This document shows, in pieces, positions 3,232 through 39,838 of a stretch of 64,000 bases of DNA. The notes beneath the pieces are model-generated. The model was not told the origin of the DNA. It did not search any database and worked only from the letters and a program-made list of their open reading frames with translations. Source of the DNA: Anadara kagoshimensis (taxonomy: Eukaryota > Mollusca > Bivalvia > Arcoida > Arcidae); assembly GCA_021292105.1 (NCBI GenBank), contig CM037869.1, positions 50,031,234 through 50,095,233 of the forward strand, read 5' to 3'. The translations under genes were made by a program, and so were the position numbers. How positions within the stretch are numbered: the first letter of the stretch is position 1; each line of letters opens with the position of its first letter.

Positions 3232-3310
3232 TAAAAGCACTACGGATGAAGAATTTTAATCCGAAACGACCCTAGAGTGCTGTAAAAGTAAAACTGTTAT
3301 AATATGTAAT
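3232..3310 (+). ncRNA. Decayed hammerhead ribozyme motif (RT-H terminal region)
   Basis: AAAGCACTA is followed by CGGATGA (consensus CTGATGA), a stem II region, CGAAAC at 3262-3267, then GAGTGCTGTAAAA. Stem I (GCACT/AGTGC) is still pairable, but the cleavage triplet GTC is lost and the core has a T-to-G change. The tail AACTGTTATAATATGTA matches the region after the ribozyme at 36770. It is inactive by sequence. Confidence 0.6.
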
Positions 3311-3409
3311 TATGTTGTTCTAGAAAGTATGCAGCCGACATATGGTTTTCCTAAAATGTGCGCAACTATACAATTTATATAATCAAACGTATACATTCTG
3401 TGACTGTGA

Positions 3410-3725
3410 TGAAAAAAATGTTTCAAATTTTAAATTTCAAACATTTTTTTATTTAAGAAAGGTACTTTAATGTTACATAATAATTTTATCCATAAGAATT
3501 CAAATTTTAATTTCATACATTTTTTTATAAGAAAGGTACATTAATGTTACATAATAATTTTATCCATAAGAATTGAAATTTTAAATTTCATTCAATGTTT
3601 TTAAGAAACGTACTTTCATGTTATATAATAATTTTCTCCATAAGAAATCAAATTTTGAATTTTATACAATTTTTTATTTAAGAAAGGTACATTAATGTTA
3701 CATCATAATTTTATCCACCAGAAGT
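3410..3725. repeat. ~75-bp tandem repeat, about four units
   Basis: The unit runs through AAGAAAGGTACATTAATG, TTACATAATAATTTTATCC and ATAAGAATTCAAATTTTAA, with small indels between units. A two-copy repeat of AAAATTAATTTAAAATACAA followed by a T run and TTTTTTTCGG follows at about 3790-3935. Confidence 0.85.
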
Positions 3726-4289
3726 CTCCTTGGGGTGACGCAACTAAGGAAAATAATCATTCCATGGTTGTCCGATCGCCTGTTCAATAACGAAAATTAA
3801 TTAAACATACAAAAAGTTTTTTTTTGTGTATTTTTTTCGGAATTTAAAACGTGATGAAATATTTTGAATATCATTCCATGACGAAAATTAATTTAAAATA
3901 CAAAAAGTGGTTTTTTTGTATTTTTTTCGGCATGCAATGTTCAAGGTGTAACCCAACAAAATTGATTGTTTCTTTTTTGTTTAATTTGAAACAGTTATGC
4001 TCAATATATTACGGGGTTGTTAATTTGTATACGTAAGTCAATACCGCCTACGACACTTTACTAATTAACCTTCGTACACAAAGCTACAGTCAAACCTGCC
4101 TTAAAGTCTAATTCTTGGTTGATTTTCTAAATCGAACGACAAACTGAAAGGATGATTCTTAATGACCGGTCAATGCTGTTTACCTATATATATATACTTC
4201 GCATTAAAATTGTAATTTTAGTAAACACTGCTTCGATCAATATCCACTTAATTTCTTAAAACTACGTATGTACCCAAAATATTCCTAAT

Positions 4290-4650
4290 GAAAGGTCAAG
4301 TGGACAGGTCAATGTTGTCTACGTATACTTAACACGAATAAAAGGTCAAGTGGACAGATCAAAGTCGTTTGCTTATAAAAGGTCAAATGGATAGGTCAAT
4401 GTTGTCTATGCATACTTATCACGAATGAAAGGTAAAATTGACAGGTCAACGTTGTTTGCTTATAAAAGCTCAAGTGGGTGACAGATTAATGTTTTCTACG
4501 TAAACTTTACACGAATAAAATGTCAAGCGGACATGTCAATGTTGTCTACGTATACTTAACACGAATCAAAGGTCAAGTGGACAGGTCAAAGTTGTTTGCT
4601 TATAAAAGGTCAAGTGGACAGGTTAATGTTGTTTGCCTATTTAACACTGA
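4290..4650. repeat. ~55-60-bp minisatellite, six to seven units
   Basis: The unit includes AAAGGTCAAGTGGACAGGTC and AATGTTGTCTACGTATACTT. Units alternate between two forms, one with CTACGTATACTTAACACGAA and one with GTTTGCTTATAAAAGGTCAA. A fragment of the M1 terminus (TACAGTCAAACCTGCCTTAA) lies just upstream, at about 4087. Confidence 0.85.
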
Positions 4651-4779
4651 TATTGTTATTTCCTTCAAAGCTATTTTTATTGATATTCATTGAATTTAGA
4701 ATAAGTATTGATCAGAGAATTACGGTGACTGACGGATTTCAGAAGAATAGTATCATCTATTCATTAGGCCAAGCCAAAT

Positions 4780-5165
4780 TAATTTGTAGTTCGTCGGATC
4801 CGCCTGCCCGCCTGTTAATTCACATATTATACCAGTCTTAATTTTACAGCGCTAGACGTCTGTTTCGGAATACAATTCCTCATAAGTAGTGGTTGAACCA
4901 AAACTTTGAAACCAAAAGTGTTTCCTAAGATGTTGAAAAGAAAGCCCCAAAGGACCAACATATTTTACCAAAATCAAAATTTCAAATTTTAACTAGCAGC
5001 AAATTTAGACAATGGTATATTTTTGACAATAATACAAAATTATTGCCTACTGAGTTTGTGATATCCTCGAATCACCAATAAAAAAACTAACATACCAGTC
5101 TATGTCAAAACCATAATCCAAAGCAAAGACAACATTTTGAAGCTTTGAATTAGGTGAACTAAGAA
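4780..5165 (-). mobile_element. RT-H 3' end: 3'UTR followed by ribozyme-bearing terminal region
   Basis: On the minus strand, 5165 to 5090 gives the RT-H 3'UTR end (CTTTGCTTTGGATTATGG, then GGTATGTTAGTTTTTTTA). It passes directly into the terminal-region body (GGATATCACAAACTCAGTAG, AATTTGCTGCTAGTTAAAAT) and then the hammerhead motif at 4897-4846. This copy shows the ribozyme unit attached downstream of the retroelement rather than being an unrelated repeat. The body matches 20731-21160 and 38180-38425. Confidence 0.7.
4846..4897 (-). ncRNA. Hammerhead ribozyme motif, one core substitution
   Basis: On the minus strand: CCACTA, CTTATGA (one change from CTGATGA), stem II GGAA/TTCC closing a TTGTA loop, then GAAAC, AGAC, GTC and TAGCGCTGTAAAATTAA. 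Stem II is perfect, and the cleavage triplet is kept. The G-to-T change at the third core base should abolish activity (known hammerhead requirements). Confidence 0.7.
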
Positions 5166-5193
5166 ATTAAAAGATGAAAACAACATTTGGATT

Positions 5194-5385
5194 CTAATCG
5201 TTTTCCGCCTGTCCGAAAAAAACCGCATTGCAAGTTTTGCCTATTTTGTGTCCATCGTATAAAATGTTTTGAACAATATCAACTATCCGATGGAGACGAT
5301 GACGTACATTAACCACGACAATGTTTGATGTTTGGATAAGTTCCGCCATCTGAATTCTTAAAAGCGTTTCGCTTGCCAGGTTCAA
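5194..5385 (-). CDS. Unrecognised short open frame
   Basis: A minus-strand frame of about 50 codons from the ATG at 5346 (MAELIQTSNIVVVNVRHRLH...) to a stop at 5194-5196. Its composition is less A+T-biased than the flanks and protein-like. I do not recognise the family and see no splice signals, domain or neighbouring exon. It could be a gene fragment, a transposon piece or chance. Confidence 0.2.
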   Translation of the reverse strand: MNLASETLLRIQMAELIQTSNIVVVNVRHRLHRIVDIVQNILYDGHKIGKTCNAVFFGQAEND

Positions 5386-5469
5386 TTTTTTGCGACTAGT
5401 AAAAAGTATTTTTTCTGTCTAATACATTCAATTTTTATCGTTCGCTCACCTTTATTTTATTCCACGAAA

Positions 5470-5770
5470 AAAAAAAACGAACCAAGAATTAATTTGGTGC
5501 TGCCTTTATGGGTTTATACTAGATTTGTTTGTTTTGAGCCACGGATGTGTGATACATGTAAAAAACATTTTCCAACGAACTAAGAATTAGTTTGGTGTGG
5601 CCTTAATGACGATATACTGGATTTGTTTGATGTGTGATACATTCAAAAACATGTTCCAGCGAACTAAGAATTAATTTAATGCTGCCTTAATGGCTATATA
5701 CTACAATTGTTTGTTTGTGAGCCACTGATGTGTGATAAATTCAAAAACATTTTCCAGCAGGAATTTCTTT
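5470..5770. repeat. ~110-bp tandem repeat, three units
   Basis: Shared blocks are GAACTAAGAATTAATTTGGT, GCTGCCTTAATGG, TATACTAGATTTGTTTG and TGTGTGATACATTCAAAAAC. The units differ by deletions. Confidence 0.85.
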
Positions 5771-5954
5771 TGATTCTATTATAATCGATATTGTAAGTTA
5801 TCTAATTAAAGATTAATGAGGAAACTTAACACCGTATCAGGACTAGGTAGCTATCCTTAGGTCAATGTTTTCATCTGATCTTATAATGGACCAAAGTTCA
5901 TAAAAGGGGAAACAAGAAACATTTCGAGCCGTATTTAAATGTGTCATGGGCCGA

Positions 5955-6915
5955 TTTTGAATTTTTTTTTACTAAAATAATGCAATCAAAATCAGAATTT
6001 TTATGTAAAATAATACATTCAAAAACAGCATTTTGATTTATTAAAATAATGCATTCAAAATCAGCATTTTTATTAAAATAATGTATTCAAAATCAGCATT
6101 TTTATTAACATGATGCATTCAAAATGAGCAAATTGATTTTGATTTTTTTTATTAAAATAATGCATTCAAAATCTGCTTAATTTGAAATGTTATTAACATA
6201 ATGCATTTAAAATTAGCAAGTTGATTTCTTTATTAAAGTAATGCATTCAAAATCAGCATTTTTATTATAATAATGCATTCAAAATCTGCATATTTTGAAT
6301 TTTGATTAAAATAATGCATTTAAAATCAGCTAATTGATTTTGATTTTTTTAAATAATGCATTCAAAATCTGCTGAATTTGACTGAATTTGAATTTTTATT
6401 AAATTAATCCATTCAGAATCTGCTAATTTTGATTTTTTATTACAATATTGCATTCAAAATCAGCAAACTGGTTTATTAAAATCATGCATTCAAAATCAGC
6501 ATTTTTAATAAAATAATGCATTCAAAATCTGCTGAATTTGAATTTTTATAAAAATAATGCATTTAGAATCTGCCAATTTTGAATTTTCATTTAAATAATG
6601 CATTCAAAATTTGCTTATTAAAATATTGCTTTCAAAATCAGCAAATTGTTTTTTTACAATAATGCATTCAAAATCAGCATTTTTAATAAAATAATGCATT
6701 CAAAATCTGCTTAATTTGAACTTTTATTAAAATAATGCATTCAAAATCTGCTGAATTTGAATTTTTATAAAAATAATGCATTCAGAATCTGCCAATGTGG
6801 AATTTTTATTAAAATAATGCATTCAAAATCAGCAAATTGATTTTGAACTTTTAATAAAATAATGCATTCAAAATAAGTACGATTTTGAATGCATTATTTA
6901 AATAAAAATCAGCAC
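5955..6915. repeat. ~40-bp AT-rich minisatellite, about 24 units
   Basis: The core is AAAATAATGCATTCAAAATC followed by variable text (AGCATTTTTATT or TGCTGAATTTGAATTTTTAT). The array ends at about 6900 with an inverted copy (GATTTTGAATGCATTATTTA), giving a terminal hairpin. Confidence 0.9.
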
Positions 6916-7060
6916 ATACAAAATGGATTAAGGGCTTTAAGTTTATATTCTGTATACTTTCAAAATGACTGGATTTTCTCATTTTTTATTTGTTGGCATA
7001 ATTTAACATCAAGAGGTCGTATAGATACAAACGTTGATTTTACGTAATGGCTATGTGCTA

Positions 7061-7140
7061 TACAGTCCAACCTGCATTAAAGACCACCTCTATATAAGGA
7101 CCACCTGCTTATAAAGGCCAGTATTGTATCCTAATTGAGG
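7061..7140 (+). mobile_element. M1 MITE, left half only
   Basis: Starts TACAGTCCAACCTGCATTAA and continues through ACCACCTGCTTATAAAGGCC, then loses homology. The right terminus is missing. Confidence 0.7.
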
Positions 7141-7839
7141 GGGCTCAAAGTTTGAACAGTATAGCATGTACCCTGCTATATGAATATTTCTTATTCCTAA
7201 TGGATCAAAAACAAACATACTAATCCAAAATTTGGGTTTTTTGTTATTTATCATGGATAAAAGAAAGGGTCGCGTTGTTGGTTCAATGCGACCTAATTTA
7301 AAAATTGTATTTGTTTTAGAAATAACTTTCAATTTGTTGTGATTTATGGAAGATAAGCAAGGTTTTCAGCGGCGGCAAGTGGCTATTTCAATAACTTGCA
7401 AATATTTCTTATATTTACGATATTAACCTTTGATATTTCTTCTCAGAATTTGCGCAAGAGCAATTATGCTAGTATAACAATTTACAATGCTGGTTTTCGT
7501 TTGTCATCCATTGGTTGCTAGTTTACTGAAATGTAAACATTATTCTTGTCGATACGATGTCAGCAATTGTAAATATTGACTTATATTCTTATCTTGATTT
7601 CTAAGCCCTTTCTTTATATAGCTTGAAGTATGTTATGTATACTTTGAAGATTGCAAATATATATATGTGATTCAATAAGAAATGGCGGATGAACACACAA
7701 ACGGCAGTACGGACAGACGGAAGGACGGGATATGCAACAACATGTAACACATAAAATGTATTTGCATCCGGGTTTGTTATACTTTCAGTTATTTATTTCT
7801 TTAAAGATTTTTCATTGTAATTTGACATAGATAAAAAAA

Positions 7840-9720
7840 AGTATATCAAGTCATTCAGTACAAAAACTCGTTTTAGTTACACTATCAGTAAATTATTTAA
7901 AATCTGGGCGCTTGTGTCCATGTGCAAAGAAAAAAAAATAAAAACTTAAACAACGTTAACGATATAACGCGTTTACTCAGTTTCTGTGTTGTTTGAGTTT
8001 CTTTGCAAATCAGAGATTAAAATACCCAGTTCGTTGTACATTAAGAGTAATGCTATAACTTAAGTGTGAAAAGTATCAAAGGGCAATAACTCTTAAATAT
8101 GTAAAAAGAGTTCTTGTTCTTGTACACTTGTCCTCATTGAGACCTTCTATCAACAAACTTTCGTGTTTACGCGTCTTATACTTTTTGTGATTTGCTCCGG
8201 GCAAAATTATGACGAAAGGACATACAAAAGTACGAAAAAGGCGCAACATAAAATGGATTGAAATCCTTGTTTCAATGATACTTTTAAGATTTCGTATGAC
8301 CAGAGTGAAAATTTGCTGTTCGACATTGATTCATAAATATGTTACAAGACATTCAGTACAATTATACTATTAACAAATCCGTATGAAGTTTCATCAAACT
8401 ACGGCCGTTTGTGATCATGCGCAATGAAGCATATAAACTCAAACAACAATATAACGCTTTTACTCCGTTTCTGTTTTGTTCGAGTTTCTTCGCAATGCAG
8501 AAATTAAAAAATTTAGTTTATTGCACATTAAAATTAAAACTTTTTCTTATATTGTTATATTGTTTTCCCATTACAATTTTATTTCTACTGATGTATTGAA
8601 TACTGCCATTTATAAAACCTAAAGTACATGTATGAAAAATAACAAAGAACAATAACGCATAACTTATAATTTATGCAAAAGGAAGTTATGGTTTGTACAC
8701 TCTGCACTTGTACTCATCGATATCAATCTACCATTGACTTCTAAGTTTCATGTTGATAGTTCCAATACTTAGGTATTATGCTCCGGACAAAATTTTTAAC
8801 AAAAGGCATTAATTATTCTTGAATATTGCACAACTCATTTAGATCTGTTAGTTTAAACAATATTTATTCAGTGAAAATCATTTCACAAAAATTGAAGATT
8901 ACCAAATATAAGTTGGGATTCTGAAACAAGAATTTAATTCTTACATTAATCAGTCTCTCACAACTGCATATACAATTAATAACATGTGGAACAAAGGTAA
9001 TAGATCTAGATATGTTGACCAACGACGTTTAACGTTGATACATGTACCCCTTATGCTTATATAAATATAAATAATCTGACCAAAATTATAATGAACAAGC
9101 AAATTCAATGAATTAGGATCCCCCGCCAAAAGGTCAAGAACCTTGCCTGGATATTACATTATGAAGGCATTTTTCGATTTTGTGACTGTAATATTTCAAA
9201 CAAAAGCATGAAAAACAGAAGAACAAGCGGACGTACATAAACGGATAAAGTAATCCTGTAATCATCTTGGTTGTTGAACTTTCAATAATTTCTCATTGGT
9301 CGGAAACATGATTTGACATAGATTCATATATGTGTCATGTGCTACCTTTTATTTTTTATTTTGAAAAATAACGCATTCCAATGTAGCACATATCAATTTC
9401 TTTTGAATGTGTTATTTTATAAAAAATCAAAAGTAGTCATTGACATATAAATAACAAATCATTCAGTACAATCACACTATTAACAAATCCGTATGGAGTT
9501 TTATCAAAATAAGGTCGCTTGTGATCATGCGCAAAACCAAAACAACCATATAAGATGTTTTACCCAGTTCTTCTGTTGTTCAAATTTCTTTGTAATGCAG
9601 AAATTAAAAAAAATCCAGTTCATTGGACATTAAGATTAATATCCTTTCTTATTAGTGATGTTTTTCCGTTACAATTTCATTTCTACAGGTGTATTGAATA
9701 CTGTCATTTATTAAGCTTTG
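7840..9720. repeat. Long-period dispersed repeat, three diverged copies
   Basis: Copies at about 7840-8130, 8330-8620 and 9440-9720 share AAATCATTCAGTACAAT, CACTATTAACAAATCCGTAT, TGTGATCATGCGCAA and TTCTGTTGTTCAAATTTCTT. Between them (8060-8240 and 8625-8830) is a second repeat with AAAGGGCAATAACTC, GTACTCATCGATATCAATC and ATGCTCCGGACAAAAT, of a kind widespread in bivalve DNA. No coding capacity is seen. Confidence 0.6.
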
Positions 9721-9949
9721 AATAATCTCTTAGGGGAATTCTTTTATAAATCTTGATGTGTAAATTCATTAATATGGGTCATACTTTGATTTAAACTGTG
9801 AGGTTTTATCCGCCATTGTAACCGTAAAAATCTATATTGAACGCAACATTAAAAGTCAATTAGAAGCCATTTCCTCTTAACGCGTTTATATAAAAAAATG
9901 AAATAAAAAAATCAGTAGCGAGTTTTTTTTTTCAGGATGTAATAAAATT

Positions 9950-10750
9950 TAGATAAGCAAGTTCTTATTAACGTTTAATGGTCCAGAAGCACAATAACAT
10001 TATGTTATTAGTCAGGTACTCTAATATTGTCCCAGTTAGCTGAGCAAAGAATGACATGCTGTGTGGGATTTAAGATACATGTATATCTAGATAAGGAAGT
10101 TCACTCATATTGTCCAATTTAGCTGACTAAAGTATGACAGATTTTTTGGCGACATTTTAGGGATGCAAGATACATGTATAGCTTTAAATTTTAAATAAGA
10201 ATGTTCTTATTATAAGTTTGTGTTCCAGAACCACAATAACATTATATTATTAGTCAGTACTCTCATATTGTCCCAGTCAGCTGACCAAAGCATGACGAGT
10301 TTTGGCGACATTTAGGGATGCCAAATACATGTTTAGCTTTATATTTATTTTTAGATAAAAATGTTCCTATTAATAGTTAATGTTCTAGAATCACAATAAC
10401 ATTATATTATTACTCAGGTACGCTCATATTGTCCAAGTTAGCTGACCAAAGTATGACAAACTTTTTGGCGACATTTTAGGGATGCAAGATATAGCTTTAT
10501 ATTTATTTTTAGATAAGAGAGTTCTTATAACCGTTTAATGGTCCAAAACCACAGTAACGTTGGTTAATATGAACAAGACTCACAATAACATTAAATTATT
10601 AGTCAGTACTCTCATTTTGTCCCAGTCAGCTGACCAAAGTATGACAAACTTTTAGGCGACATTTTAGGGATGAAAGATACATGTATAGGTATATATTTTA
10701 TTTAGATAAGAATTTTCTCATTAATGGTTAATTGGCCAGGACCACAATAA
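9950..10750. repeat. ~140-190-bp tandem repeat, about five units
   Basis: Each unit carries AGATAAGAATGTTCTTATTA, CACAATAACATTATATTATT, AGTCAGTACTCTCATATTG, CCAGTTAGCTGACCAAAG and TTTTAGGGATGCAAGATACA. Length differences come from internal indels. The CAATAACATTATATTATTAG part can form a small hairpin. Confidence 0.85.
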
Positions 10751-12699: not shown

Positions 12700-12708
12700 A
12701 CTATTTTA

Positions 12709-17719: not shown

Positions 17720-18600
17720 TTATACACTTATTTCCGGTATCATAGGACATTTTCTCCCAATCACCTATATATTTAAGTTAAATAAATCACTCTGTCCGGT
17801 ATCAATAAAAATTAGATATTTCTCCCCATCAGCGATCTACTTAAGCTAGAAATATCCTGTCCGATATCAATAAAACAATGAGACATGTTCTCCCCATCAC
17901 CGATGTATTTTAAGTTTAAATCACCCAGTCCGGTATTAATAAAACAGCAGTGGGATTAAAAGAATCTATCACAACTTGTGGTGCCAGATAGGGAAATCTC
18001 AACCCGAGTTCTGATATATTTGGTCCAAAACGAGGCTTGCCGAGTTCTGGACCAAATATATTAGAACGAGGGTTGAGATTTCCTTATCTGGCACTACAAG
18101 TAGTGATTGATTCTATTTCTTGCACAGAAAGTACAATATTCAATTTAAAATCAATTTCAACTTTCGGTACACCTCTGATTTTGTTGATAAAAGATTGCGG
18201 GAAAAACGGCGTGTAGGCTATCTTGCACAGGGGGGTACAAGATGGAGATATCTTGCACCTCTCTTTTCATGGATTTTTCTATCTGGGGTGCAAGAATATA
18301 AGAATCCATCACCGATGCAGTGTAAGTTTAAATCACCCAGTCCGGTATTAATAAAACAGCAGTGGGATTATTTCTCTCCATCACCGATGCAGTTTAAGTT
18401 TAAATCACCCGGTCCGATATTTATAAAACAGTGGGATGCATTGATTTCTCTCCATCACCGATGCAGTTTAAGTTTAAATCACCCAATCCGATATTAATAA
18501 AACAGTGGGATTTTTCCCCGTCAGTGATCCATTTGTCCAGTATCAATATAATTTCTACCCATCACCGATCTTTTAAGTTAAAATCACTTTATGTTTTAAA
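17720..18600. repeat. ~70-80-bp tandem repeat, interrupted
   Basis: Unit landmarks are TCCGGTATTAATAAAACAGC, CCATCACCGATGCAG and TTTAAGTTTAAATCACCC. About four units precede and five follow a foreign segment at roughly 17958-18305. A 125-codon frame at 18120-18497 spans the repeats and is not a gene. Confidence 0.85.
17958..18118. mobile_element. Palindromic foldback element inside the array
   Basis: Arms of about 70 bp: AGAATCTATCACAACTTGTG through ATATATTTGGTCC pairs with GGACCAAATATATTAGAACG through AGTAGTGATTGATTCT, around a ~20-base loop. A further ~185 bp bounded by TTCTTGCACAGAA and GGTGCAAGAATATAAGAA belongs to the same interruption. Confidence 0.75.
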
Positions 18601-19704: not shown

Positions 19705-19790
19705 ACAACCGCCTAGTGCTGTTAAATTAACACTGGTTAAATATGTGAGCCACTGAGCCAGTTTCTCTGCTAGTGAATGTTTCTCCCGAA
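19705..19790 (+). repeat. RT-H terminal-region fragment with ribozyme 3' half
   Basis: CGCCTAGTGCTGTTAAATTA, then AACACTGGTTAAATATGTGA and GCCACTGAGCCAGTTTCTCT, follow the order after the ribozyme in the minus-strand element at 20731-21160. The catalytic half is missing. An 80-codon minus-strand frame across this segment (19639-19881) is therefore repeat-derived. Confidence 0.6.
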
Positions 19791-20730: not shown

Positions 20731-21160
20731 GACATTAGTATATTTCTGACAATAATACACAGTTATTGCCTACTGGGTTTGTGATATCCTCGGTGCACCA
20801 GCCACCAGCAGAGATACCGGCTCAGTGGTTTAAATTACATATTCAGATATTATACCATTTGTAATTTTACAGCACTAGGCGGCCGTTTCGCAATTTACAA
20901 TTCCTATTCAGTAGTGCTTGGACCGATATTATGAAAGCAAAACTTTTTCAAGATGAGCTAAGAAAATACTTTGCATGAGGGAGTATACTTTAGTTTTTGG
21001 GGAATTTCAAATTTTAACTAGCAGCAAATTTAGACAATAGTATATTTTTGACAAGGATACACAATTATTGCCAACTGAGTTTGTGATATCCTTGGGGCAC
21101 TAGTCACCAGCCTGCAGCCAGCAGAGATACCGGCTCAGAGGTTTATATTAAATATTATAT
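20731..21160 (-). mobile_element. RT-H terminal region as a partial tandem dimer
   Basis: Two copies of a block containing GACAATAATACACAGTTATT, GTTTGTGATATCCT and CAGAGATACCGGCTCAG lie 302 bases apart (starting 20748 and 21050). The single full period between them carries one hammerhead motif (20870-20921). About 1.4 units are present. A repeat period of about 300 bases with one type I hammerhead per unit is the layout known for metazoan retrozymes and for terminal repeats of some Penelope-like elements. Confidence 0.7.
20870..20921 (-). ncRNA. Hammerhead ribozyme motif, core eroded
   Basis: On the minus strand: CCAAGCACTA, CTGAATA (expected CTGATGA), a weakened stem II, CGAAAC, GGCC, GCC (expected GTC), then TAGTGCTG. 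Stem I is a perfect 7-bp AGCACTA/TAGTGCT. Two core changes make it inactive. Confidence 0.65.
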
Positions 21161-24529: not shown

Positions 24530-25560
24530 TGTTCAAATTAAAATTGCAATCGTTAGTCACAAACATACAGACCCATGTTCAAATCACAATCCAAAAAAGT
24601 CAACCACACACATACCAATCCATGTTCAAATCACAATCCAAAAAAGTCAACCACACACATACCCATCCATGTTCAAATCACAATCCAAAAAAGTCAACCA
24701 CACACATACCAATCCATGTTCAAATCACAATCCAAAAAAGTCAACCACACACATACCAATCCATGTTCAAATCACAATCCAAAAAAGTCAACCACACACA
24801 TACCAATCCATGTTCAAATCACAATCCAAAAAAGTCAACCACACACATACCAGTCCAAGTTCAAATCAATATCCAAAAAGCCTAACAGAAATATATTGGT
24901 CATTGTTCAATTCACAAACCCAAAGGTCAAACAGAAATATATTGGTCCTTGTTGAAATCACAATCTCAAAAGTCAACCACAAACATACCAGTCCATGTTC
25001 AAATCAAAATCCCTAAAGGCCAAACAGAAATATATTGGTCCTTGTTCAAATTACAAACACAAAAGCCAAACAAAAATATATTGGTCCTTGTTCAAATCAC
25101 AATCCCAAAAGCCAAACAGAAATATATTGGTCCTTGTTCAAATTACAATCACAAAAGCCAAACAAAAATATATTGGTCCGTTTTCAAATCAAAGTCCCAA
25201 AAGCCAAACAGAAATATATTGGTCCTTGTTCAAATCAAAGTCCCAAAAGTCCAACAGAAATATATTTTTCCTTGTTCAAATCAAAGTCCCAAAAGTCCAA
25301 CAGAAATATATTTATCCTTGTTCAAATCAAAGTCCCAAAAGCCAAACAGAAATATATTGGTCCTTGTTCCAATCACAGTCCCAAAAGTAAAACACAAATA
25401 TATTGGACCTTGTTCAAATCACAACCCCAAAAGTCAACCACAAACATACCGGTCCATGTCCAAATCACAATCCCAAAAGCCAAGTCGAAATATATTGGTC
25501 CTTGTTAAAATCACAGTCTCGAACTTAGAACACAAACATACCTGTGCACTTATAAATCAC
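24530..25560. repeat. 47-bp satellite derived from the RT-H 3' end
   Basis: About 21 units of TGTTCAAATCACAATCC, AAAAAAGTCAACC and ACACACATACCAATCC. The first block (24580-24860) is almost identical between units. Later units shift to CCAAAAGCCAAACAGAAATA and TATTGGTCCTTG. The unit equals the last ~47 bases of the RT-H 3'UTR read on the minus strand (compare 28050-28100), and the array runs straight into more RT-H 3'UTR at 25550-25640. With 47-bp units lacking stops, all three plus frames stay open; these are not genes. Confidence 0.9.
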
Positions 25561-27429: not shown

Positions 27430-27512
27430 GAATTTATATTTAATTTAGAATTACATATTATTCCAGTTTTAACTTTACAGCACTAGACGACCGTTTCAGA
27501 ATACAAAGTAAC
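27430..27512 (-). ncRNA. Hammerhead motif, 3' half only
   Basis: On the minus strand: TTGTATTCTGAAACGGTCGT, then CTAGTGCTGTAAAGTTAAAA and CTGGAATAATATG. GAAAC, GTC and the 3' strand of stem I are intact, but the CTGATGA half is replaced by unrelated sequence. Confidence 0.6.
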
Positions 27513-27710
27513 AGACCGTGTCGGTTATAGCCCACAAATTTGATACCAAATCAATTTACAAATAGAATTCCAGTAAAATATTTATTAGCATATATGATAT
27601 ATAGATTTAACTTATGAAGGATAATATTGATTAATTTAGAGGTGTAACTAATTATTATGAAGTCTTAGTCTTTGTAAATGCAAAGGAGTTTAGAATCTAT
27701 TAAATAGCAG

Positions 27711-29510: not shown

Positions 29511-29536
29511 GAGCATTACTGATGAGGAATAGTGCT
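29511..29536 (+). ncRNA. Hammerhead motif with internal deletion
   Basis: GAGCATTACTGATGAGGAA is the intact 5' part (CTGATGA perfect). It is joined directly to TAGTGCT, the 3' strand of stem I, so the GAAAC and GTC section is deleted. It lies about 20 bases after the end of an RT-H 3'UTR. Confidence 0.65.
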
Positions 29537-29545
29537 ACAAAACTA

Positions 29546-31407: not shown

Positions 31408-31631
31408 TACGGTTCAGACCTGTCGAAAGTGTAACACCTAAGGAATAAGTGTCCAATTTACAGCTGATCTTGTTCCGTCTTTAGCTATATTGTAGCAGCT
31501 TTTCCGCAGCTGTTATATATCTCTAGGCAGAAATTCGGACTCCATAGCTTTCCCTATCTCGGCCATTGGATAGCCGAGCTGCGACTCCTTTTGCTAGATC
31601 AGTGTTTAACTTTCGATAGGTATGTAGTGCA
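31408..31631. mobile_element. M2 MITE
   Basis: TACGGTTCAGACCTGTCGAA at the left; GTGTTTAACTTTCGATAGGT at the right. GCAGCTTTTCCGCAGCTGTT and CTCGGCCATTGGATAGCCGA form interior hairpins. Confidence 0.75.
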
Positions 31632-31739
31632 TGGATCGGTACATCACGTAAATGTAAAACTTATCAGTCATAATCTCTTAAATTTCCATATATTAAATTT
31701 TAAATGTACGTTTTCATTGATATCATATTACCCCCCTTC

Positions 31740-32090
31740 TCTCTCTCTTTCTAAATTTGTTTTGATTTTGCAGTGACCGTTTGGTAAAAAAATCATCATC
31801 AGTAATGCTTTGGCCAAAATTGTGGAAATCTAAAGACTTTTTTAAGATGTTGAAATGATGAATTGGGCAAAGTAGAAGGAACAAAATATTTAACATATCT
31901 AATAAAGGTCTTAGGCAATACTTTGAACGGTATTTTGAGCAATGTTAAAATTTGAGAAGACAATGTTTTTTTATGAATGTTAATGTTATAAATTCAATTC
32001 ATGCATTGCCACCTTGGTTATTGATATTCTTGGGAATGCTTAGTCCACTATCAGCAATACCAGCCCGATGGTTTAAATAATAATAAAACC
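31740..32090 (-). mobile_element. RT-H terminal region, single unit
   Basis: On the minus strand the body (GGTTTAAATTA-like start near 32085, then ATTGCTGATAGTGGACTAAG) leads to the ribozyme motif at 31813-31770. It is the same order as 20731-21160. An M2 copy lies beyond its 3' side. Confidence 0.55.
31770..31813 (-). ncRNA. Hammerhead motif, CTGATGA kept but GAAA mutated
   Basis: On the minus strand: CCAAAGCATTA, CTGATGA, a degraded stem II, CAAAC in place of GAAAC, GGTCAC, then TGCAAAATC. The changed G of GAAA and the blurred cleavage site make it inactive. Confidence 0.6.
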
Positions 32091-32109
32091 TTTTTTTTTA
32101 TTTTCCAGT

Positions 32110-32695
32110 CAGGTACATGTATATGAATTACGTGGTGACTTTTCTTATTTTACTTTTCACAACTTTTCTTTTCTATTTACTACGCAGCCTTATATTTGTG
32201 TCTCCATTGCTTATGTCAGTTTTGTTTCACTCTGTGGTACCGCCTTTTTCCACCATGAAAACTTTTTACAATTACAACAAACCAAGCTGCTTACAAGTAA
32301 ATTGTTGATAAAAGAAGCCTAAGTCTATAAAAATGTCCGTCATCACAATTATGTTGATAAAAAAGTTTCTATATCTAAAATTTTATATGGATATATTTGA
32401 CACCCCATTATTCCTTGTTCATTTAATTCTTAATTTTGATTTTGTTGGCAGATTTGGGTGCTTAGCCGTCCGTAACCTTGGTATTATTATCTGGTCGACG
32501 TTTGTATTTTTCCGTAGTGTCAGTTTTCAACATTTTTTCTTTGTTTTGGACTTTGTTATTGATTGTTCATCTACTTCCTCCTACTTTATAAATAATGACT
32601 ATCAAAAACAAATTAAACATACCAATTCATCCTTAAGCAAAGTCAATATACTTTGAAACTGACAAATTAAGTAACACTAGTACCGGTGACTTGTT
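32110..32695. pseudogene. Opposed RT-H remnants, plus then minus
   Basis: Plus strand 32110-32575: degraded RT end (GCTGCTTACAAGTAAATTGT, TGTCCGTCATCACAATTATG, GGATATATTTGACACCCCAT) and 3'UTR. Minus strand 32600-32695: 3'UTR end (AAACATACCAATTCATCC, ACTTTGAAACTGACAAATTA). They meet tail to tail within about 25 bases. Confidence 0.65.
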
Positions 32696-32739
32696 TCATT
32701 CTTCTCACAATTATTCACTTTTGATTATTTTTTCCTAGC

Positions 32740-34180
32740 GCAGCTATGATACATCAATACAATCTTGATTAAAACTAATTCATTAAATAAATGGGTCTTT
32801 AACAGAACAGAATTTTCAAATCTTGTCAGTGTCATTTCTAGATCAATGCTCGCTCCACGTACAGCATTTAACTATTATCAATTTTACAAACCACTAAACG
32901 CCAATTTTAATTTTGTCTTATCGCAAATCCCCGCCCAGACGTAAATTAAAATGTTTCAAGCATTTTGATGTGTCATATTTTGTGTTACGTTTGCATTAAA
33001 GGATTGGCTCTCAGTGACGTCATCTTATTATGGAAGACGCACAGAGGCATTTTTCCCACGCCATAACGATGCCATTTTTACTTGCTACGGCAATATTGTT
33101 ATTTACATTGTGGTTTGCTGTTGAAAAAAATTATAAAATTATATATTAAATTGAATTATAAGGAATTAATTATAAGAAATAATTTTTTTTCAGTCATGGT
33201 AGGATGAAAGAATTGGACATTTTGCACACTGAATTATTCGCGTACCAAAATATAACATAACGAAGCATAACAAAAAGAATAATTCACTTTATTCCTATAA
33301 TAAGACAGTACAATGTTTTATTTAAATGCTATTAATGACAAAATTTGATTAACTCTCAAAATAAGACTATTATTCGTTTTTAATATTGCATCCAAACGCT
33401 TCAATTGTATATTGATACAATCTTGATCAAAACAATTTCAATACTTTTTATCGCGAACTGATTATTTTTCAAATCATGTCAGTGTCATATCGAGACTACC
33501 AATGCCCGTTCCGCATTCTACATTCAACAATTATTTATTTCTAACTTTTTATCCTCTCACATCGATGCTACAGCAATGCAAGCTTGACAAAATGGACACC
33601 AATACATTTTTAATCCAAAAGTAGCTTTAAAATTCTGTCTACCTGCTCATTCATCGTACGAATATCGATACATTATCTCGATATAAAAAACCTAAACAAA
33701 TCTATATTCACATCACGATCTCAAAACAAAGTAAAATCTTTGAAACTGCCAAATTAAGTTTAAGTGAAATACGTGAAATTCCACCAAGGAAGTGGGTTTA
33801 CTAGGCTGATACTTAGGACTAAAGGTACTAAAAAAGAAACAGTTGTTTTCAAATTACAAATTGCCAAAGTCTGTTTCAGTCTCAAATTAGAATACTATCC
33901 TATTCTAATATTTAATGTTATGCTTCGATGGTATATCAATGCAATTTTTCATCAAAACAATTCAATATTTTTTTGAGAAACTGGTTTGTTTTCAAATTAT
34001 GTCAGTGTCATTTTGAGACCGCCAATGACCGTTCCACATTCTGCATTTAACTGTTATCCATTTTTAAATTTTCCATTCTAAAATATCGATGCTACACTAA
34101 TGTAATCTTGATAAAATAGACATCAATACATTTTTTATAAAAAATGTAACTTTTCAAATATTGTCAGTGTCATTCCTGCC
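32740..34180. repeat. ~160-bp dispersed repeat, four diverged copies
   Basis: Copies near 32740-32900, 33400-33560, 33920-34060 and 34080-34180 share TGTCAGTGTCAT, TTCCACATTCTGCATTTAAC and TACAATCTTGATCAAAAC. A minus RT-H 3'UTR piece (33690-33800, AAATTCCACCAAGGAAGTGG) and another dispersed repeat (32990-33300) lie between them. Confidence 0.6.
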
Positions 34181-34221
34181 CATTCACTGTACGAAAATCG
34201 ATACATTACCGCGGTATAAAG

Positions 34222-34438
34222 TACAGGTCTGTCAAAAGTTTAACACCAAGCTGGCGAATAAATACCAAATCGGCAGTTAGCCATATCTGGACAGCTCTTC
34301 GGCAGTTGAGCTGTCTATCTCTCCACAGCTTTCCTATCATAGACTATCTATATCTTGGCCACTGGTCAGACAAGTTTCGACTTTTTTTCGCTAGCTCAGT
34401 TTTTAATTTTCGACAGGTCTGTACTGTACCTAAACGAT
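34222..34438. mobile_element. M2 MITE, full length
   Basis: Left TACAGGTCTGTCAAAAGTTT, then AACACCAAGCTGGCGAATAA; right ATTTTCGACAGGTCTGTACT. Confidence 0.85.
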
Positions 34439-35222
34439 TGTCGCGATATACATTAGAGATATAAGCCTGTATATGGATTACTTAACTAAAGAATATTGCC
34501 GGCTTGAAACATGAAATTTAAATTAAATAATCTGAAATGGGATTAAATACTAGTTTTATATGTAACATAATATTGATTATTCCATCGCAGGATAACAAAA
34601 AAAGGAAACAAAAAGACAATACTAATATTACGAAAATATCAGAATTTTCAGAGCAGAACTGATGTAAATTTGATATTTTTATCCATATTTAATTTTAATC
34701 AGTTAAATTAATGGGTATGAATATTACTTGACAAAAGTACATGCACACTGACATTCAAAATACCTGAATAATTTGTTAACATTTCTGGGGAAAACATGAT
34801 ACGTATGTCAAATGGTTACACATTTGTGTTTACCCAGGAATTAATCCATAACGACTACATGTATCAAAGTTATTTCTATTTATTGTAGCAAGACTCATCT
34901 CTAATTTCAGACAGTCATGCCTCGTACAATTTTCAACCTAAATGAGTCTTACCTACCAAATTAGGTTCTATTCGACTAAAGGGTTAGTGAAGAGGTTTTT
35001 TTAAAATCCGTTTCAAAAACAATGAAAATCAGGACATTAAGAATATTTAAACTCCATTACAAATTATAAATTTATTTCTATAAATTAATCACAAAAATTG
35101 TGTGTCAAAGTAACGTACATTTCATTTAAATATGAATCAACAGAAAATGTTTAATACATCAACAAATAGAAATAAAAAAAAAAACCAATAATGGTAAAAT
35201 TACCAAAATAATAATTCAACTC
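34439..35222. other. Non-coding stretch
   Basis: An acceptor-like CATCTCTAATTTCAG at about 34897-34911 is followed by only a 15-codon frame. No exon is supported. Confidence 0.4.
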
Positions 35223-35640
35223 ATAAGCAAACATATTAATCCATGTCGGCATCACAATCCAAAGGCAAAGTTAAAACTTTAAAACAGACAAGGTTTTAAA
35301 CACGTGTTTTTGCAACAGGGAAGTGAGACCGGGTGCTCCAGAAAAGAAAGCACCTCCTGCTAGCTACACCCGTCACGTGTATAATCAAAATTGAGTAAAA
35401 GGAACTAGGAACTATTGGACGTCAAATATATCCAGGCCAATCCTGAACACATGGACACTAAATTTATCAGCAATACTATGATGACGGCTATAAGACTTTT
35501 TAGGGTCGTGTGCTTGCAATATTCCTGGATCAACAATTTATTTGTAAGCAGCTTGCTTCGTTGTATAAAGTTCTCATATATGGAACAAGCGGAACTCAAT
35601 CGTTTAATTGGAAAAAATACACCTTAAGCAGTAAAAGCGG
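35223..35640 (-). pseudogene. RT-H copy, long but frame-broken
   Basis: From the 3'UTR (CATATTAATCCATGTCGGCA) through CCTCCTGCTAGCTACACCCG to RT text. The minus frames give YENFIQRSKLLTNKLL and then, after frameshifts, text like HHSIADKF. Another 3'UTR fragment on the same strand sits at 35675-35800 (GGGGCGAGGCAGGGAGCTTC). Confidence 0.75.
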
Positions 35641-35999
35641 ATAGATCTGTATTGCTTAATAGAAAAAGAAAGTTACTCATCCATGTCCAAATCATAATCT
35701 TAAAAGCGAAATTCTAAACTAGCAAATTAATTTTTATAAGGGGGCGAGGCAGGGAGCTTCAGAAGTGTAAGCACATACTGTCTTCTTTATTTACAATAAA
35801 TTACTATTTTATGAATCCTTCTTAAGACCTTTTCCACATATCGAATAAATTTATTGAGAATAACATTCACACTTCACATATTGACATATTTAAAAAAATA
35901 TATTGATGCTTCACTCCTTGACCATATACCGATATAAATCTAGTGGCCTATTTTAATTACTTTAACGAATTTTTTCAATAAAACAGAACTCGTGACTGA

Positions 36000-36180
36000 G
36001 GGGATTTTAGCGCAAGTTAACGGATATCTCGCCGCCTTAGGTTAGAATCCCACTCGAAGACAGATTTCATTGTGAGAAAGCTTGTCAGTTTTGGTTTTCA
36101 AAGGTCTCTGGTTTTCTCTGTCGTTCTTCCTCATCTAAGAAATGTTCGCCTCGATATAAATGAAAGAGTCTGAGGGGGAA
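36000..36180 (+). mobile_element. Second-type SINE, diverged
   Basis: CCTTAGGTTAGAATCCCACT stands at the B-box position, then GAAAGCTTGTCAGTTTTGG, CTCTGGTTTTCTCTGTCG and CCTCATCTAAGAAATG match the body of the copy at 13505. Head eroded. Confidence 0.5.
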
Positions 36181-36284
36181 GCTCAAATATTATTACACTT
36201 CATTGCACATTATTCAATTAATTGAATGGCATATGTAAAACAGAGGTCCCTGTCCATCTTGTCATACACTGACAGAATTTGAAA

Positions 36285-36440
36285 TACCACAAACACAACA
36301 CAGCAGCCCACAAATCATCTCAAAATCAAAGTGAAAACATAACAATTTAGTTAAACGCTTAAACTTTCACACGGTCCCCGGAAAACATAAGAATGAAAGG
36401 AACACGAAACTTTTGGACGTCAAATATATCCAGGATATGA
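36285..36440 (-). pseudogene. RT-H 3'UTR fragment
   Basis: AATCAAAGTGAAAACATAAC, AAACTTTCACACGGTCCCCG, GAAAGGAACACGAAACTTTT and GGACGTCAAATATATCCAGG. Confidence 0.6.
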
Positions 36441-36764
36441 TTTTCTTTTATTATCGGTCATTCAAACGTTTGTAAAAGTATCTGACCAAGTCTGAGTATG
36501 TCCAGGACTGATTAGTCTTTCGCCAAAAATGTGACATTTAGAAATAAAAACTACGGTGTCCTTAAAACTTAATGTCCCTTAGAATAAAATACAAAGAGTA
36601 AACATGCACATGATTTATGATCAAGATTTATTATGTAGTATTGCACACGTCAGCAAATGTTTGATTTTGACTAAAAAATCCTAAAATGAGTGAACATAGT
36701 AATATATTTTTTTATTCAATTTAAAATATTTTTTTAAAAATGGTTTCACAATTCCAGACTATTC

Positions 36765-36830
36765 ACTACTGAGGACAAATTGTATTCCGGAACCGTCGTC
36801 TAGTACTGTAAAATTAACACTGTTATAATA
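36765..36830 (+). ncRNA. Hammerhead motif, core damaged
   Basis: TTCACTACTGAGGACAAATT replaces CTGATGAGG, followed by GTATTCCGGAACC (GAAAC changed to GGAAC), GTCGTC and TAGTACTGTAAAATTAAC. The 3' half and the downstream CTGTTATAATATGTAG are well kept. Confidence 0.6.
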
Positions 36831-37859
36831 TGTAGTATGATATGTAAGAAACATCTTAACCTGCAAAAATAAATACTCCAAATTTTGCTAAAATTTTAAA
36901 TATTGACGTGTGCACTGTAAAGTCACTGATGTATTGTTCTACCCCTATATTTAATAGTACTCCAGGGCCCACGATAGCTTAACAACAGTAAATGTGAGTA
37001 AATCTCTCAGCAGCAGTTGAGAAAATACATATTTTATGACATTCCAATTACCTCCCCAGGGTATACAAATAACATTCATCCATGAAACTTCAGTAATCAT
37101 TTGGATATTTCATTTATATAATAAATGGTATTAATTGTCAGTTTATGAATCTAATGCAAACAACTGTCTTTCATAAAACAGGTTTAATCATAAAAAATGT
37201 TATTGTTTTAACTTTTTTAAATACTCAAATAACAACGTTTAAAAATGAATTCAAACTAAATGTTTTACAGACAAAAAATCATTTGTATAAACAAAAGGTG
37301 TGGAGAAATGGTGCTTTACGTTAAAGCCAGGACTCTTTAACTTATATAGATGAAATTTCCATACTTAAATTACCATACATATATGAAACTAGTCCATTAT
37401 GACAGAGTCAAATTCTTGACAAAATTAAATTGTTTAAAACTTATCATTCTTCTAAAATCAAGTGTCTTGCAACAAAATGGTGTTATTATCTTGAAAATGA
37501 AATTTTCAGAATTTTTTATATTTTTTTTCTTCACAATTTCAGAAAATTCCAAGTAATTGGTTTTCTAGAAAAACAAGTTAAGATATCACTTTCAAACTTA
37601 ATTAAATAAAGAAAACCACACATAAAACGGTCAATGTTAAGGAGATGATAAACATGGGAGTGAATAGGAAGTAACTTCCGGTCGACAAAAGTACGAGCCT
37701 CCCTTTTGACTGCCGTACGCATCTTCGTTTATCTCGAACTTCGGAAAAGTCAAACTATTTTAATTTCCCCGTGAAGTTCAAGATAACGAGAGTCCAAGGT
37801 ATATGTTATTGTATGAACAAAATTTGACATGATGGTTATAATGTAATCACTGTGTTAAT
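36831..37859. other. Non-coding stretch
   Basis: No gene. At about 37685-37800 a short GC-richer piece has an imperfect palindrome around TTCGTTTATCTCGAACTTCG and GAAGTTCAAGATAACGAGAG, a string type often dispersed in molluscan DNA. Confidence 0.4.
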
Positions 37860-37975
37860 CAAAAACAAACATACTTATCCATTTCCGAATCACAATCCAG
37901 AAGCAAAGTAAAAACTTTGGAACTGACAAGTTAGGTTAGACACGTAAACTTCCACCAGGGAAGTGAGGCCGGTGT
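37860..37975 (-). pseudogene. RT-H 3'UTR fragment
   Basis: AAAAACAAACATACTTATCC, GAAGCAAAGTAAAAACTTTG, ACTTCCACCAGGGAAGTGAG, cut off after GGCCGGTGTT. The sequence then runs toward the intact ribozyme unit on the other strand. Confidence 0.75.
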
Positions 37976-38050
37976 TAAGTTATTTATGGATGGCAGTGTA
38001 TATTTTGGTCCATATTTATTGAACCCCGTGAAAAATTGATTTCACAATAA

Positions 38051-38096
38051 CTTGTCACTGATGAGGATTTGTATTCCGAAACGGTTGTCTGGTGCT
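38051..38096 (+). ncRNA. Type I hammerhead ribozyme with intact catalytic core
   Basis: Core by position: CTGATGA 38058-38064; stem II GGA 38065-38067 with TCC 38075-38077 around a seven-base loop; GAAA 38078-38081; minimal stem III (A81-T88, C82-G87, then GG and TT); predicted cleavage after C38089 of GTC; stem I from CTTGTCA (38051-38057) with TGGTGCT (38090-38096), partly by G-T wobbles. All invariant core bases known for hammerheads are present. Stem III is too short for a stable monomer; hammerheads of this kind usually work as dimers. The motif sits in an RT-H terminal region, where it would process multimeric transcripts. Confidence 0.7.
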
Positions 38097-38425
38097 GTAA
38101 AATTGAAAAAAGGTTTAATATCAAATTATATAGTCGGTGTTATAAATAATGCATTTACAGGTGTGGAAAATGTTCTTATGTTTAGATTGGATTATTATAA
38201 ATGTTGAATCTCACGATTTACCTACGGTGGTTTGGTCTTGAGCATATAAGGAATTAAATTGTCTAAATTTGCTGCTACTTAAAATTTGAATTTCCTCAAA
38301 AACTAAGGTATACTCCCTCATGCAAAGTAATTCTTTAGCTAAATTTGGTAATCTTTAATTTTTGTCCTTTGATAATCTTTTCAACATCTTGAAAACAATT
38401 TGGTTTAATAATTTTATTCCAAGCA
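38097..38425 (+). mobile_element. Body of an RT-H terminal-repeat unit
   Basis: Between two ribozyme motifs (cores about 371 bases apart). It contains AAATTGTCTAAATTTGCTGC, TACTTAAAATTTGAATTTCC, AGGTATACTCCCTCATGCAA and TTTTCAACATCTTGAAAACA, which reappear in reverse complement at 4900-5030 and 20935-21030. It is non-coding. Confidence 0.7.
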
Positions 38426-38463
38426 CTACTGATATGGAAGTATATTTCGAAAAGGCCGTCTAG
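38421..38463 (+). ncRNA. Second hammerhead motif, fused to RT
   Basis: AAGCACTA, CTGATAT (two changes from CTGATGA), GGAAGTATATTTC, GAAAA, GGCC and GTC ending at 38460. After GTC only TAG of stem I remains before RT coding homology starts. The motif is inactive by its core changes. The boundary coincides with the predicted cleavage position. Confidence 0.65.
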
Positions 38464-39172
38464 AGAAGAATGTCGCCAAATCAGTCAACTCAACATACAG
38501 ATATATAGATGACGTTCTGTCTCTTAACAATCCTAAATTTGTATATTATGTACATGTCATCTATCCTAGTGGGCTTGAAATAAAAGACACGACTGGTTCC
38601 TCAAATTCTGCTTTATATTTAGACTTATACCTGAATTATGACGCATTAGAAAGGCCACATTTGCAACTTTATGACAAACGTGATGACTTCAATTTTTCTA
38701 TTGTCAACTTTCCTTTTTTATGCATCAATATACCTGCTTCTCCTGCTTATGGTGTATTTGTTTCCCAAATAATACGCTATGGTAGAGCTTGTCCCGCTGC
38801 GGGGACTTTGTGCAACAACGTAGGCTGCTTGCAAATAAATTGTTGACTCAGGGATATTGCAAACCTATGCTTATCAAGGCCCTCAAAAAGTTTTATGGCC
38901 GTCATCACAGTATTATTGATAAGTTTGATGTCTCTTAGTCCAGGATTGCCCTGGGTATATTTGATGTCTAATAGTTCCATGTTCCTTTCACACAATTTTG
39001 ATTACACACATGGCGGGTGTAGCTAGCTAAACAGGAGGTGCTTACCCTTCCGGAGCACTCGGCCTCACTTCCCTGGTGGAAGTCCACGTGTCTAAACTTA
39101 CTTGCCATTTTCAAAGTTTTTACTTTGCTTCTGGATTGTGATTCGGTCATGGGTTAGTATGTTTGTTTTTTA
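38460..39172 (+). pseudogene. RT-H copy with RT palm-to-C-terminus and 3'UTR
   Basis: An open frame from 38460 to the stop at 38844-38846 reads EKNVAKSVNSTYRYIDDVLS, IYPSGLEIKDTTGSSNSALY, LDLYLNYDALERPHLQLYDK, RDDFNFSIVNFPFLCINIPA, SPAYGVFVSQIIRYGRACPA. YIDD at 38502-38513 is the catalytic box of reverse transcriptases, whose two aspartates bind metal. A frameshift near GRACPA breaks it; the rest continues in another frame (AACCTATGCTTATCAAGGCC, GGATTGCCCTGGGTATATTT) and the complete 3'UTR ends at about 39165. Family assignment to a Penelope-like element is inferred from the ribozyme association and the thumb-like region, not proven. Confidence 0.8.
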
Positions 39173-39192
39173 TTTGGTACAAGCACTACTGA
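39173..39192 (+). ncRNA. Hammerhead 5' half directly after an RT-H 3'UTR
   Basis: AAGCACTACTGATTAGG lies within a few bases of the 3'UTR end (GTATGTTTGTTTTTTATTTG) and is truncated after AGG. It supports a ribozyme flanking the RT copy on the 3' side as well as on the 5' side. Confidence 0.55.
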
Positions 39193-39200
39193 TTAGGTGA

Positions 39201-39676
39201 TCCCTTGGGGTGATACGTACACATATACTACGTGGTCGCAAGTATACATTCTCTTTTTACATTTGATATTTTAACGCAAACATAAAAAAATTCTATAAGT
39301 CTCGTTTTACCATTTAAGTATATATGTCATCCACAAATATTTTAGAAATAACCCATATATAATGAAGTTATGTCTAATTCATTAGTTTTATTACCAGATA
39401 TTTGTAATATATATACATCCATTTAACTCATTAAAGTAATTCAATACTTCACCTAACTGTCAAATGTACACACATATATGAATTTAAATAATTAATTGCT
39501 CATAAACAAACCTCGTGGTTGAAATTTAAAAGCATTTATATTCTTCCTCTAATGGTTTGTAAATATGATATGTTGCAATTAGGCATTAGATAGTTTGCTT
39601 GTCTCCAAACGCTATAACAGAAACAGATTGTTTCTCTTAAACAAAAACGCGTTTTATTAAAAATAAATAACAGAGT
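39201..39676. other. AT-rich stretch, nothing recognised
   Basis: No exon or repeat identified. Confidence 0.4.
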
Positions 39677-39838
39677 TACAGTCTAGATCTGTCGAAAATT
39701 TAAAACCGAGTTGATAAAACGGAGCTGCTGAGTAATGGAGATATGGATTTTTGATTTTTACACAATTTCGTTCTCAGCACTACTAGTGAGGGATTTTAAT
39801 CCGAAAAGTTCGTCGAGAGATGCAAAATTAAAAGATGT
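39677..39838 (+). repeat. M2 fragment followed by a decayed hammerhead motif
   Basis: TACAGTCTAGATCTGTCGAA then AACCGAGTTGATAAAACGG is the M2 left end. From 39777, CAGCACTACTAGTGAGGGAT, TTTAATCCGAAAAGTTCGTC and GAGAGATGCAAAATTAA form a ribozyme relic with an altered core (CTAGTGA). Confidence 0.6.

Follow-up and report, generated by a model that had tools for sequence, protein, structure and literature searches.

A dispersed hammerhead ribozyme family in Anadara kagoshimensis: a probable non-LTR retrozyme with a possible link to Penelope-like elements

The subject of this article is a 64,000-nt stretch of the genome of the bivalve Anadara kagoshimensis (assembly GCA_021292105.1, contig CM037869.1, positions 50,031,234 to 50,095,233; hereafter the window), in which a preliminary description, made from the letters alone, had listed twelve places with a type I hammerhead ribozyme motif. 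In our opinion these motifs are remnants of a metazoan retrozyme family of the kind that lacks long terminal repeats (non-LTR), with a non-coding unit of about 339 nt and one type I hammerhead, and we give this reading a probability of roughly 85%. The family, its unit, the ribozyme consensus, a fixed 3' end, uniform 5' truncation and a head shared with a Penelope-like element (PLE) are read directly from the DNA. More tentatively, at odds that we put a little under even, the retrozyme may be a parasite of a permuted PLE, a 5' hairpin of about 58 nt serving as recognition and priming site and reverse transcription starting just before it.

The retrozyme family and its unit

Chance is ruled out as the source of the motif by its abundance. 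The genome (1.115 Gb in 36 contigs) holds 21,968 matches to a 25-base pattern of the hammerhead core with up to three mismatches, 10,979 on one strand and 10,989 on the other, and not a single match to the reversed pattern used as control. The exact core pattern has no match in viral contigs. The bare heptamer CTGATGA occurs 7 times in the window, against 7.08 expected by chance.

Copies were collected from 41 sequences with 266,140 bases in all, namely the window and 40 loci, half of them 9 kb long and the other half about 1 kb; labels such as L009, L011 or L049 denote sampled genomic loci outside the window. The unit matches this sample 80 times, mostly as single, dispersed copies. It is best seen at L011, where five units of 338-339 nt each follow one another in tandem, the four that were compared being alike at 334-335 of 339 positions. 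The unit starts with TAAACC.CTGAGCCG, ends with GTATAATATG.AATT, has a GC content of 0.339 and carries one hammerhead at positions 263-308, with the cleavage site after position 301. There is no notable coding frame in the 339 nt and, judged by eye, there are no LTR-like flanks at the L011 array. In these respects the family agrees with metazoan non-LTR retrozymes, which have a non-coding unit of about 150-450 bp, one type I hammerhead, tandem arrangement, GC below 50% and no LTRs; a further mark of that group is expression as linear and circular RNA.

The consensus and the intact copies have the make-up of a type I hammerhead (CUGANGA...GAAA...UH with stems I to III, stem I being open). The full motif of the preliminary description is real, with 17 exact copies of its 46 nt in 12 of the 40 sampled loci, but the window contains none. 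Stem III is indeed minimal; it is not loopless, as had been thought, but consists of two pairs closing the palindromic tetraloop GGCC. According to structure prediction, the consensus hammerhead folds with stems I and II, and two copies co-fold into a double hammerhead whose stems I and III are intermolecular (-36.7 kcal/mol versus 2 x -13.4 kcal/mol). Four loci, which together hold ten exact cores and a single variant, were scanned with the Rfam model Hammerhead_1, and three reports were returned (28.1, 28.1 and 19.0 bits); the two better ones, L011:4554 and L018:4007, have E 0.0031, and in the Hammerhead_1 alignment every core position is present and the pairs are standard.

Some further observations concern the sampled loci. 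Retrozyme copies with identical flanks lie at different sites in L022/L024, L025/L028 and L038/L039/L040, carried there by larger duplications or other repeats. L071 holds a reversed variant with a longer head, beside which the sequence looks palindromic by eye. The sampled loci also match a G protein-coupled receptor and a cytochrome P450.

Copies in the window

All twelve listed places indeed belong to one repeat family: a search with the L011 unit recovers every one of them at E<=0.01, with the poorest scores at 29512 (E 0.008) and 39162 (E 0.001). Only one of the twelve, 38051-38096, keeps every core nucleotide (read by eye; a scripted count overlooked it, having kept only the second hammerhead of the partial dimer to which it belongs), while the others carry substitutions in the core or lack one half. 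The copies do lie on both strands, those at 4846, 20870, 27430 and 31770 being on the minus strand. A single intact hammerhead as query against the 266 kb finds seven nearly whole copies in the window with E from 8.7e-9 to 9.5e-4: 3234-3285, 36760-36811, 38049-38100, 38420-38471 and 39774-39825 on the plus strand, 4844-4895 and 20867-20920 on the minus strand. On the minus strand it also picks up half a hammerhead, the 3' one, at 27475-27507; the family member placed at 27430 actually spans 27444-27557. Of the other places, 19705 has just the 3' half, those at 29511 and 39173 are reduced to 5' halves or internally deleted, and 31770 is degenerate. Perfect complementarity of stem I holds for 20870 and, with one G-U pair, for the arms left at 29511, but not for most copies.

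A 5'-truncated copy at 3218-3311 (plus strand, unit positions 245-339) contains the hammerhead remnant 3234-3285, whose core (copy 3236) is damaged at U4. The copy at 4817-5077 on the minus strand covers unit positions 33-339, and its hammerhead (copy 4893) is broken at G5. At 19709-19789 (plus strand) there is a fragment with the 3' half of a hammerhead, the unit end and 43 nt of the next head. The minus-strand copy at 20736-21145 comprises a full unit, from 21145 to about 20833, plus approximately the first 97 nt of the next one; its hammerhead at 20867-20920 (copy 20918) retains stem I, and the core is substituted at G8 and at the U of the cleavage triplet. The 5'-truncated copy at 27444-27557 (minus strand) has a hammerhead that can be made out in its 3' half alone (27475-27517). 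The fragment at 29512-29543 (plus strand) holds a hammerhead with an internal deletion, of which the stem I arms are left, and an old, degenerate, near-full unit with 62% identity occupies 31777-32108 on the minus strand, its non-functional hammerhead lying at about 31759-31809. The remaining copies are all on the plus strand. One, at 36701-36832, is 5'-truncated (unit 194-334), with the core of its hammerhead (copy 36763) broken at A13. The partial dimer at 37999-38463 carries two hammerheads spaced 371 nt apart, of which the first (38049-38100) is the sole intact one of the window, with a stem I of five pairs, three of them G-U, and the second (38420-38471, copy 38422) is damaged at G8/A9; the dimer stops 3 nt beyond the cleavage position of this second hammerhead. 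A fragment at 39162-39197 has only the 5' half of a hammerhead, and the 5'-truncated copy at 39747-39856 (unit 237-339 and beyond) has a hammerhead (copy 39776) broken at G5/A6. Beyond the twelve, 60160-60227 may be a fragment of the retrozyme body without a hammerhead (unit 66-133, 70% identity, E 4e-4, plus strand).

A custom covariance model built from 64 copies gives E values from 7e-15 to 6e-9 for seven window copies, all included in the model by construction, and of 0.004, 0.025 and 0.24 for three copies absent from its training set, the last two values belonging to 29512 and 19709. The copies at 31770 and 39173 were undetected, the former even at E<=1. Outside the window an intact core is found in 44 of 60 full-span copies, in a sample biased by the selection for exact cores.

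Other features of the window can be listed briefly. A 51-bp minisatellite of 54 copies at 52895-55668 lies in the GC-richest part of the window and is open in one frame (ETHPSPSLANELVLNPG repeats). Satellite-like arrays with repeats of about 125 bp and 112-115 bp lie at 41210-42214 and 44476-46019, respectively. Long hairpins at 17978-18097, 51456-51542 and 52115-52227 are perhaps miniature inverted-repeat transposable elements; their matches to microRNA families are below the Rfam cut-offs.

The ends of the insertions

We reduced the 80 matches to 70 insertions: neighbouring matches were merged, and those touching the edge of a locus were dropped, as were the single copies of L024, L028, L039 and L040, each of which belongs to a duplication counted elsewhere. 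In sixteen of the 70 the alignment spans upwards of 345 unit positions or the copy is longer than 380 bp, in at least one case only because two matches were merged. As many as 52 have their 3' end no more than 8 nt from the end of the unit, where about 3.5 are expected (17 of 339 positions), and for 58 the distance is at most 12 nt. The unit end lies 38 nt beyond the ribozyme cleavage site, and only 2 of the 70 have their 3' end within 8 nt of that site. Among insertions that lie in the window or have no exact sampling core, the proportion ending within 8 nt of the unit end is 18 of 30. The 5' ends, by contrast, are uniformly distributed (Kolmogorov-Smirnov p 0.81); with 6 of 70 within 8 nt of position 302, where 3.5 would fall if uniform, we make no claim that they are set by the ribozyme.

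A fixed 3' end combined with uniform 5' ends is the signature of reverse transcription from one internal start with early stops. Since the start lies 38 nt past the cut, a template ending at the cut could not be copied from its own 3' end, and the template would have to be a circle or an uncut multimer with an internal start. Two window copies read through into the next head, 19709 by 43 nt and 20736 by about 97 nt.

In metazoan non-LTR retrozymes target-site duplications, if there are any, exceed 4 bp. Among 61 copies here (65 before duplicates were left out), 6 share at least 8 nt, compared with 1.9 expected, and 4 of 300 shuffles are as high. This excess is due to array joints and a minisatellite copy, and as a signature it is unconvincing.

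The Penelope-like element and the shared head

A search for the reverse transcriptase of the PLE gave 28,607 first-look candidates in the genome, of which 150 were scored. The most informative copy, at L049, has an open reading frame of 998 amino acids with the Pfam domains GIY-YIG (aa 134-223; E 1.5e-4, 22.5 bits with a cut-off of 22.6) and RVT_1 (aa 745-848; E 7.1e-5, 23 bits with a cut-off of 29.6). Judged from its sequence this is probably a Penelope-like element with an N-terminal nuclease, though both domains score under their Pfam cut-offs. The order, nuclease before reverse transcriptase, is seen in this one copy, and we take it to be that of the Naiad type. L050 holds two PLE copies in tandem, where the 3' end runs straight into the head with no hammerhead in between.

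The first 58 nt of the PLE and of the retrozyme unit are identical at 45 of 58 positions without a gap. This alignment scores 32, the best of 2000 shuffles 15 (0 of 2000 as good), and two other retrozyme variants score 26 and 30 against the PLE head. Each of the two units opens with the common head, which takes up its first ~60 nt and stands in the same phase in both, and the PLE head of L050 and the retrozyme head of L011 have the same predicted hairpin. Shared head and fixed internal 3' end together point to a Penelope-like enzyme as the driver.

The window itself contains pieces of this PLE on the plus strand. A reverse transcriptase fragment with a YIDD motif (38466-38846) adjoins the 38420 hammerhead copy, and a stretch matching the 3' untranslated region (UTR) of the same PLE (38959-39174) ends where the retrozyme fragment at 39162 starts. 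We considered whether such PLE 3' end/retrozyme 5' end junctions are chimeras (L012:1293, window 39162/39174 and, more loosely, L017:4385) and do not claim it, as they are not above chance. The PLE 3' UTR is very common, with 163 matches, 95 of them with the 3' terminus, in 266 kb (window and L009-L048). A 46-bp array of 20 copies at 24576-25515 is open in several frames, and its units resemble part of the PLE 3' UTR on the minus strand.

The cycle that we infer, with its cleavage, its circles and the identity of its enzyme, would run as follows. A tandem source locus would be transcribed and its hammerheads would cut the RNA, probably in pairs through the palindromic ACGGCCGU of stem III, after which a ligase of the host may close the monomers into circles. 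The head would be bound by an enzyme from another source, most likely the PLE with the common 5' hairpin, and reverse transcription would begin immediately ahead of the head, always at the same point (unit ~339, 38 nt past cleavage). Copying would go round the circle one or several times, or follow a multimer. The cDNA would be inserted at scattered sites, usually after an early stop, which would leave 5'-truncated solo copies and short arrays, and the inserted copies would then decay.

Weighing the evidence

Several results weigh against the retrozyme interpretation. The first is detection: the gathering score of RF00163 is not reached, the best of all copies scanned having 28.1 bits against a cut-off of 34, and 8 of about 11 intact hammerheads in the four loci are unreported by Rfam at E<=10. 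Further, the best predicted fold of the monomer disrupts stem III, the fold of 38051 is no better than that of its shuffles (z 0.18), and pair counting over 64 copies shows compensatory change not above shuffles. All 40 sampled loci lie at the beginning of a single contig, and the exact core was the basis of their selection. Finally, two of the six target-site cases are L011 array joints and one lies in a 32-bp minisatellite, which leaves three.

By Rfam cut-offs alone, the first outcome that the preliminary description had named as its refutation would stand. Rfam shows no hammerhead in the window at gathering scores or at E<=10, nor in 36700-39900 scanned alone; from 37990-38160, with the intact copy, the sole report is of Hammerhead_3, with a score no better than chance (13.3 bits, E 3.3). 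Four exact L011 copies are equally unreported, even from a short stretch. The other proposed check was conservation of the core over the flanks: in the 34 of 77 copies without the exact sampling core, conservation is 0.838 for the ribozyme, 0.762 upstream and 0.860 downstream (permutation p 0.083). A Rfam cut-off is a database threshold and not part of the hammerhead fold. If copies drift as whole fossils after insertion, both the Rfam misses and such conservation values are to be expected; selection on structure among copies is not seen, there being no compensatory excess in the 64. The identification of the hammerhead rests on the family consensus and the genome-wide abundance. The original view of type I hammerheads in a dispersed retroelement family is supported, and of its two candidates it is the retrozyme that fits.

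For the PLE as driver the difficulties are different. The shared head rests on two PLE copies, one of them 5'-truncated within the head: of 41 5' regions examined, the head is found in L050 (whole) and L049 (from its position 14), and of the 40 fetched by position only L050 held it, the others being truncated or out of register and L071 containing the reversed retrozyme variant. Two of four heads, those of L009 and window 20772, fold differently. Covariation with the PLE head amounts to two pairs changed on both sides and is not significant, and PLE-retrozyme junctions in the sample number 2 within 15 nt (0.49 expected; 89 of 1000 shifts as high).

It is fair to ask whether a long interspersed nuclear element (LINE) moved the retrozyme, the common head being an accident of capture. 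Non-LTR behaviour by itself does not name the enzyme, and the co-insertion with the PLE is not above chance. On the other hand, the head opens both units in phase, and PLE reverse transcriptase is described in PMC11167929 as starting within its own RNA, next to the region that it binds, much as this family has a fixed start inside the unit. We consider a LINE less likely than the PLE, though a serious competitor.

Much less probable is an autonomous PLE with these hammerheads in its pseudo-LTRs, of which the short copies would be truncated ends. The preliminary description had offered PLEs beside retrozymes, and PLEs do carry minimal type I hammerheads according to excerpts of PMC7761336 and PMC11167929. 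The PLE is abundant in this genome, and its reverse transcriptase fragment adjoins the 38420 copy. Yet neither of the two readable PLE 5' ends, L050 and L049, has a hammerhead (at L049, no significant model or pattern match), whereas the retrozyme unit is non-coding, repeats itself every 339 nt and forms in-phase arrays. Satellite DNA spread at the DNA level, by recombination, Helitrons or extrachromosomal circles, with the ribozyme as passenger, would agree with the tandem arrays, the other satellite-like arrays filling the window and the lack of convincing target-site duplications, but it is the least probable explanation of all, because the sampled copies are mostly single, dispersed and on both strands, and because a 3' end common to 52 of 70 insertions, together with truncation spread evenly at the 5' side, is the signature of reverse transcription from one start.

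Relationship to known systems

Metazoan non-LTR retrozymes have been described from coral, mussel and axolotl (PMC7229834). In animals such elements give rise to plentiful circular RNAs, and their driver has so far been proposed only from indirect hints; PLEs were put forward because of co-existence, shared hammerheads and tandem copies (PMC7229834). The sequence link to a PLE and the fixed copying start found here make this proposal testable. If true, the parasite interpretation would identify the enzyme, long looked for, that moves an animal retrozyme, and would account for the fixed 3' ends. A practical lesson is that decayed copies in such a family, and even intact ones, escape notice when covariance-model cut-offs are applied strictly. 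A full-text literature search for 'hammerhead ribozyme' with 'clam' found no paper, and the titles and abstract openings of related literature do not mention a retrozyme sharing sequence with a PLE.

In our reading the present family adds one more to the metazoan non-LTR retrozymes. Its likeness to the mussel, newt and axolotl retrozymes (PMC7229834) is one of description. Those of Mytilus galloprovincialis (Cervera & de la Pena 2020, PMC7229834) likewise have a low-GC non-coding unit with one type I hammerhead in tandem, occur in thousands of copies and coexist with Penelope-like elements. Their unit is 350-390 bp compared with 339 nt here, and their hammerheads number about 5,000, while our 21,968 cores with up to three mismatches were counted differently. 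A stem III of two pairs with a tetraloop is stated for invertebrate hammerheads in the same source. Circular RNA was demonstrated for the mussel retrozymes, whereas the present family is known from DNA; the 5' head shared with a PLE and the 3' end 38 nt past cleavage are not mentioned for mussel in the sections considered. The newt and axolotl retrozymes resemble ours in their 330-350-nt units, weak stem III with a tetraloop and action as dimers, and the two-pair stem III recalls that of axolotl HHR_Amex2 (PMC7229834).

Plant LTR retrozymes (PMC4918200) are also non-autonomous, hammerhead-bearing and tandem or dimeric, but differ in their type III hammerheads, LTRs and units of ~700 bp (PMC7229834, PMC7761336). 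Poseidon of Anolis, a PLE with hammerheads (Frangieh 2024, PMC11167929), shares with our family tandem units, an internal start of reverse transcription and optional 3' tails. Poseidon-type PLEs encode a reverse transcriptase and a nuclease (PMC11167929), whereas the retrozyme here encodes nothing; the PLE of this genome differs from Poseidon in its N-terminal nuclease and in having no hammerhead at the single tandem junction seen. The extensions of the 19709 and 20736 copies into the next head recall the tails of PLEs (PMC11167929).

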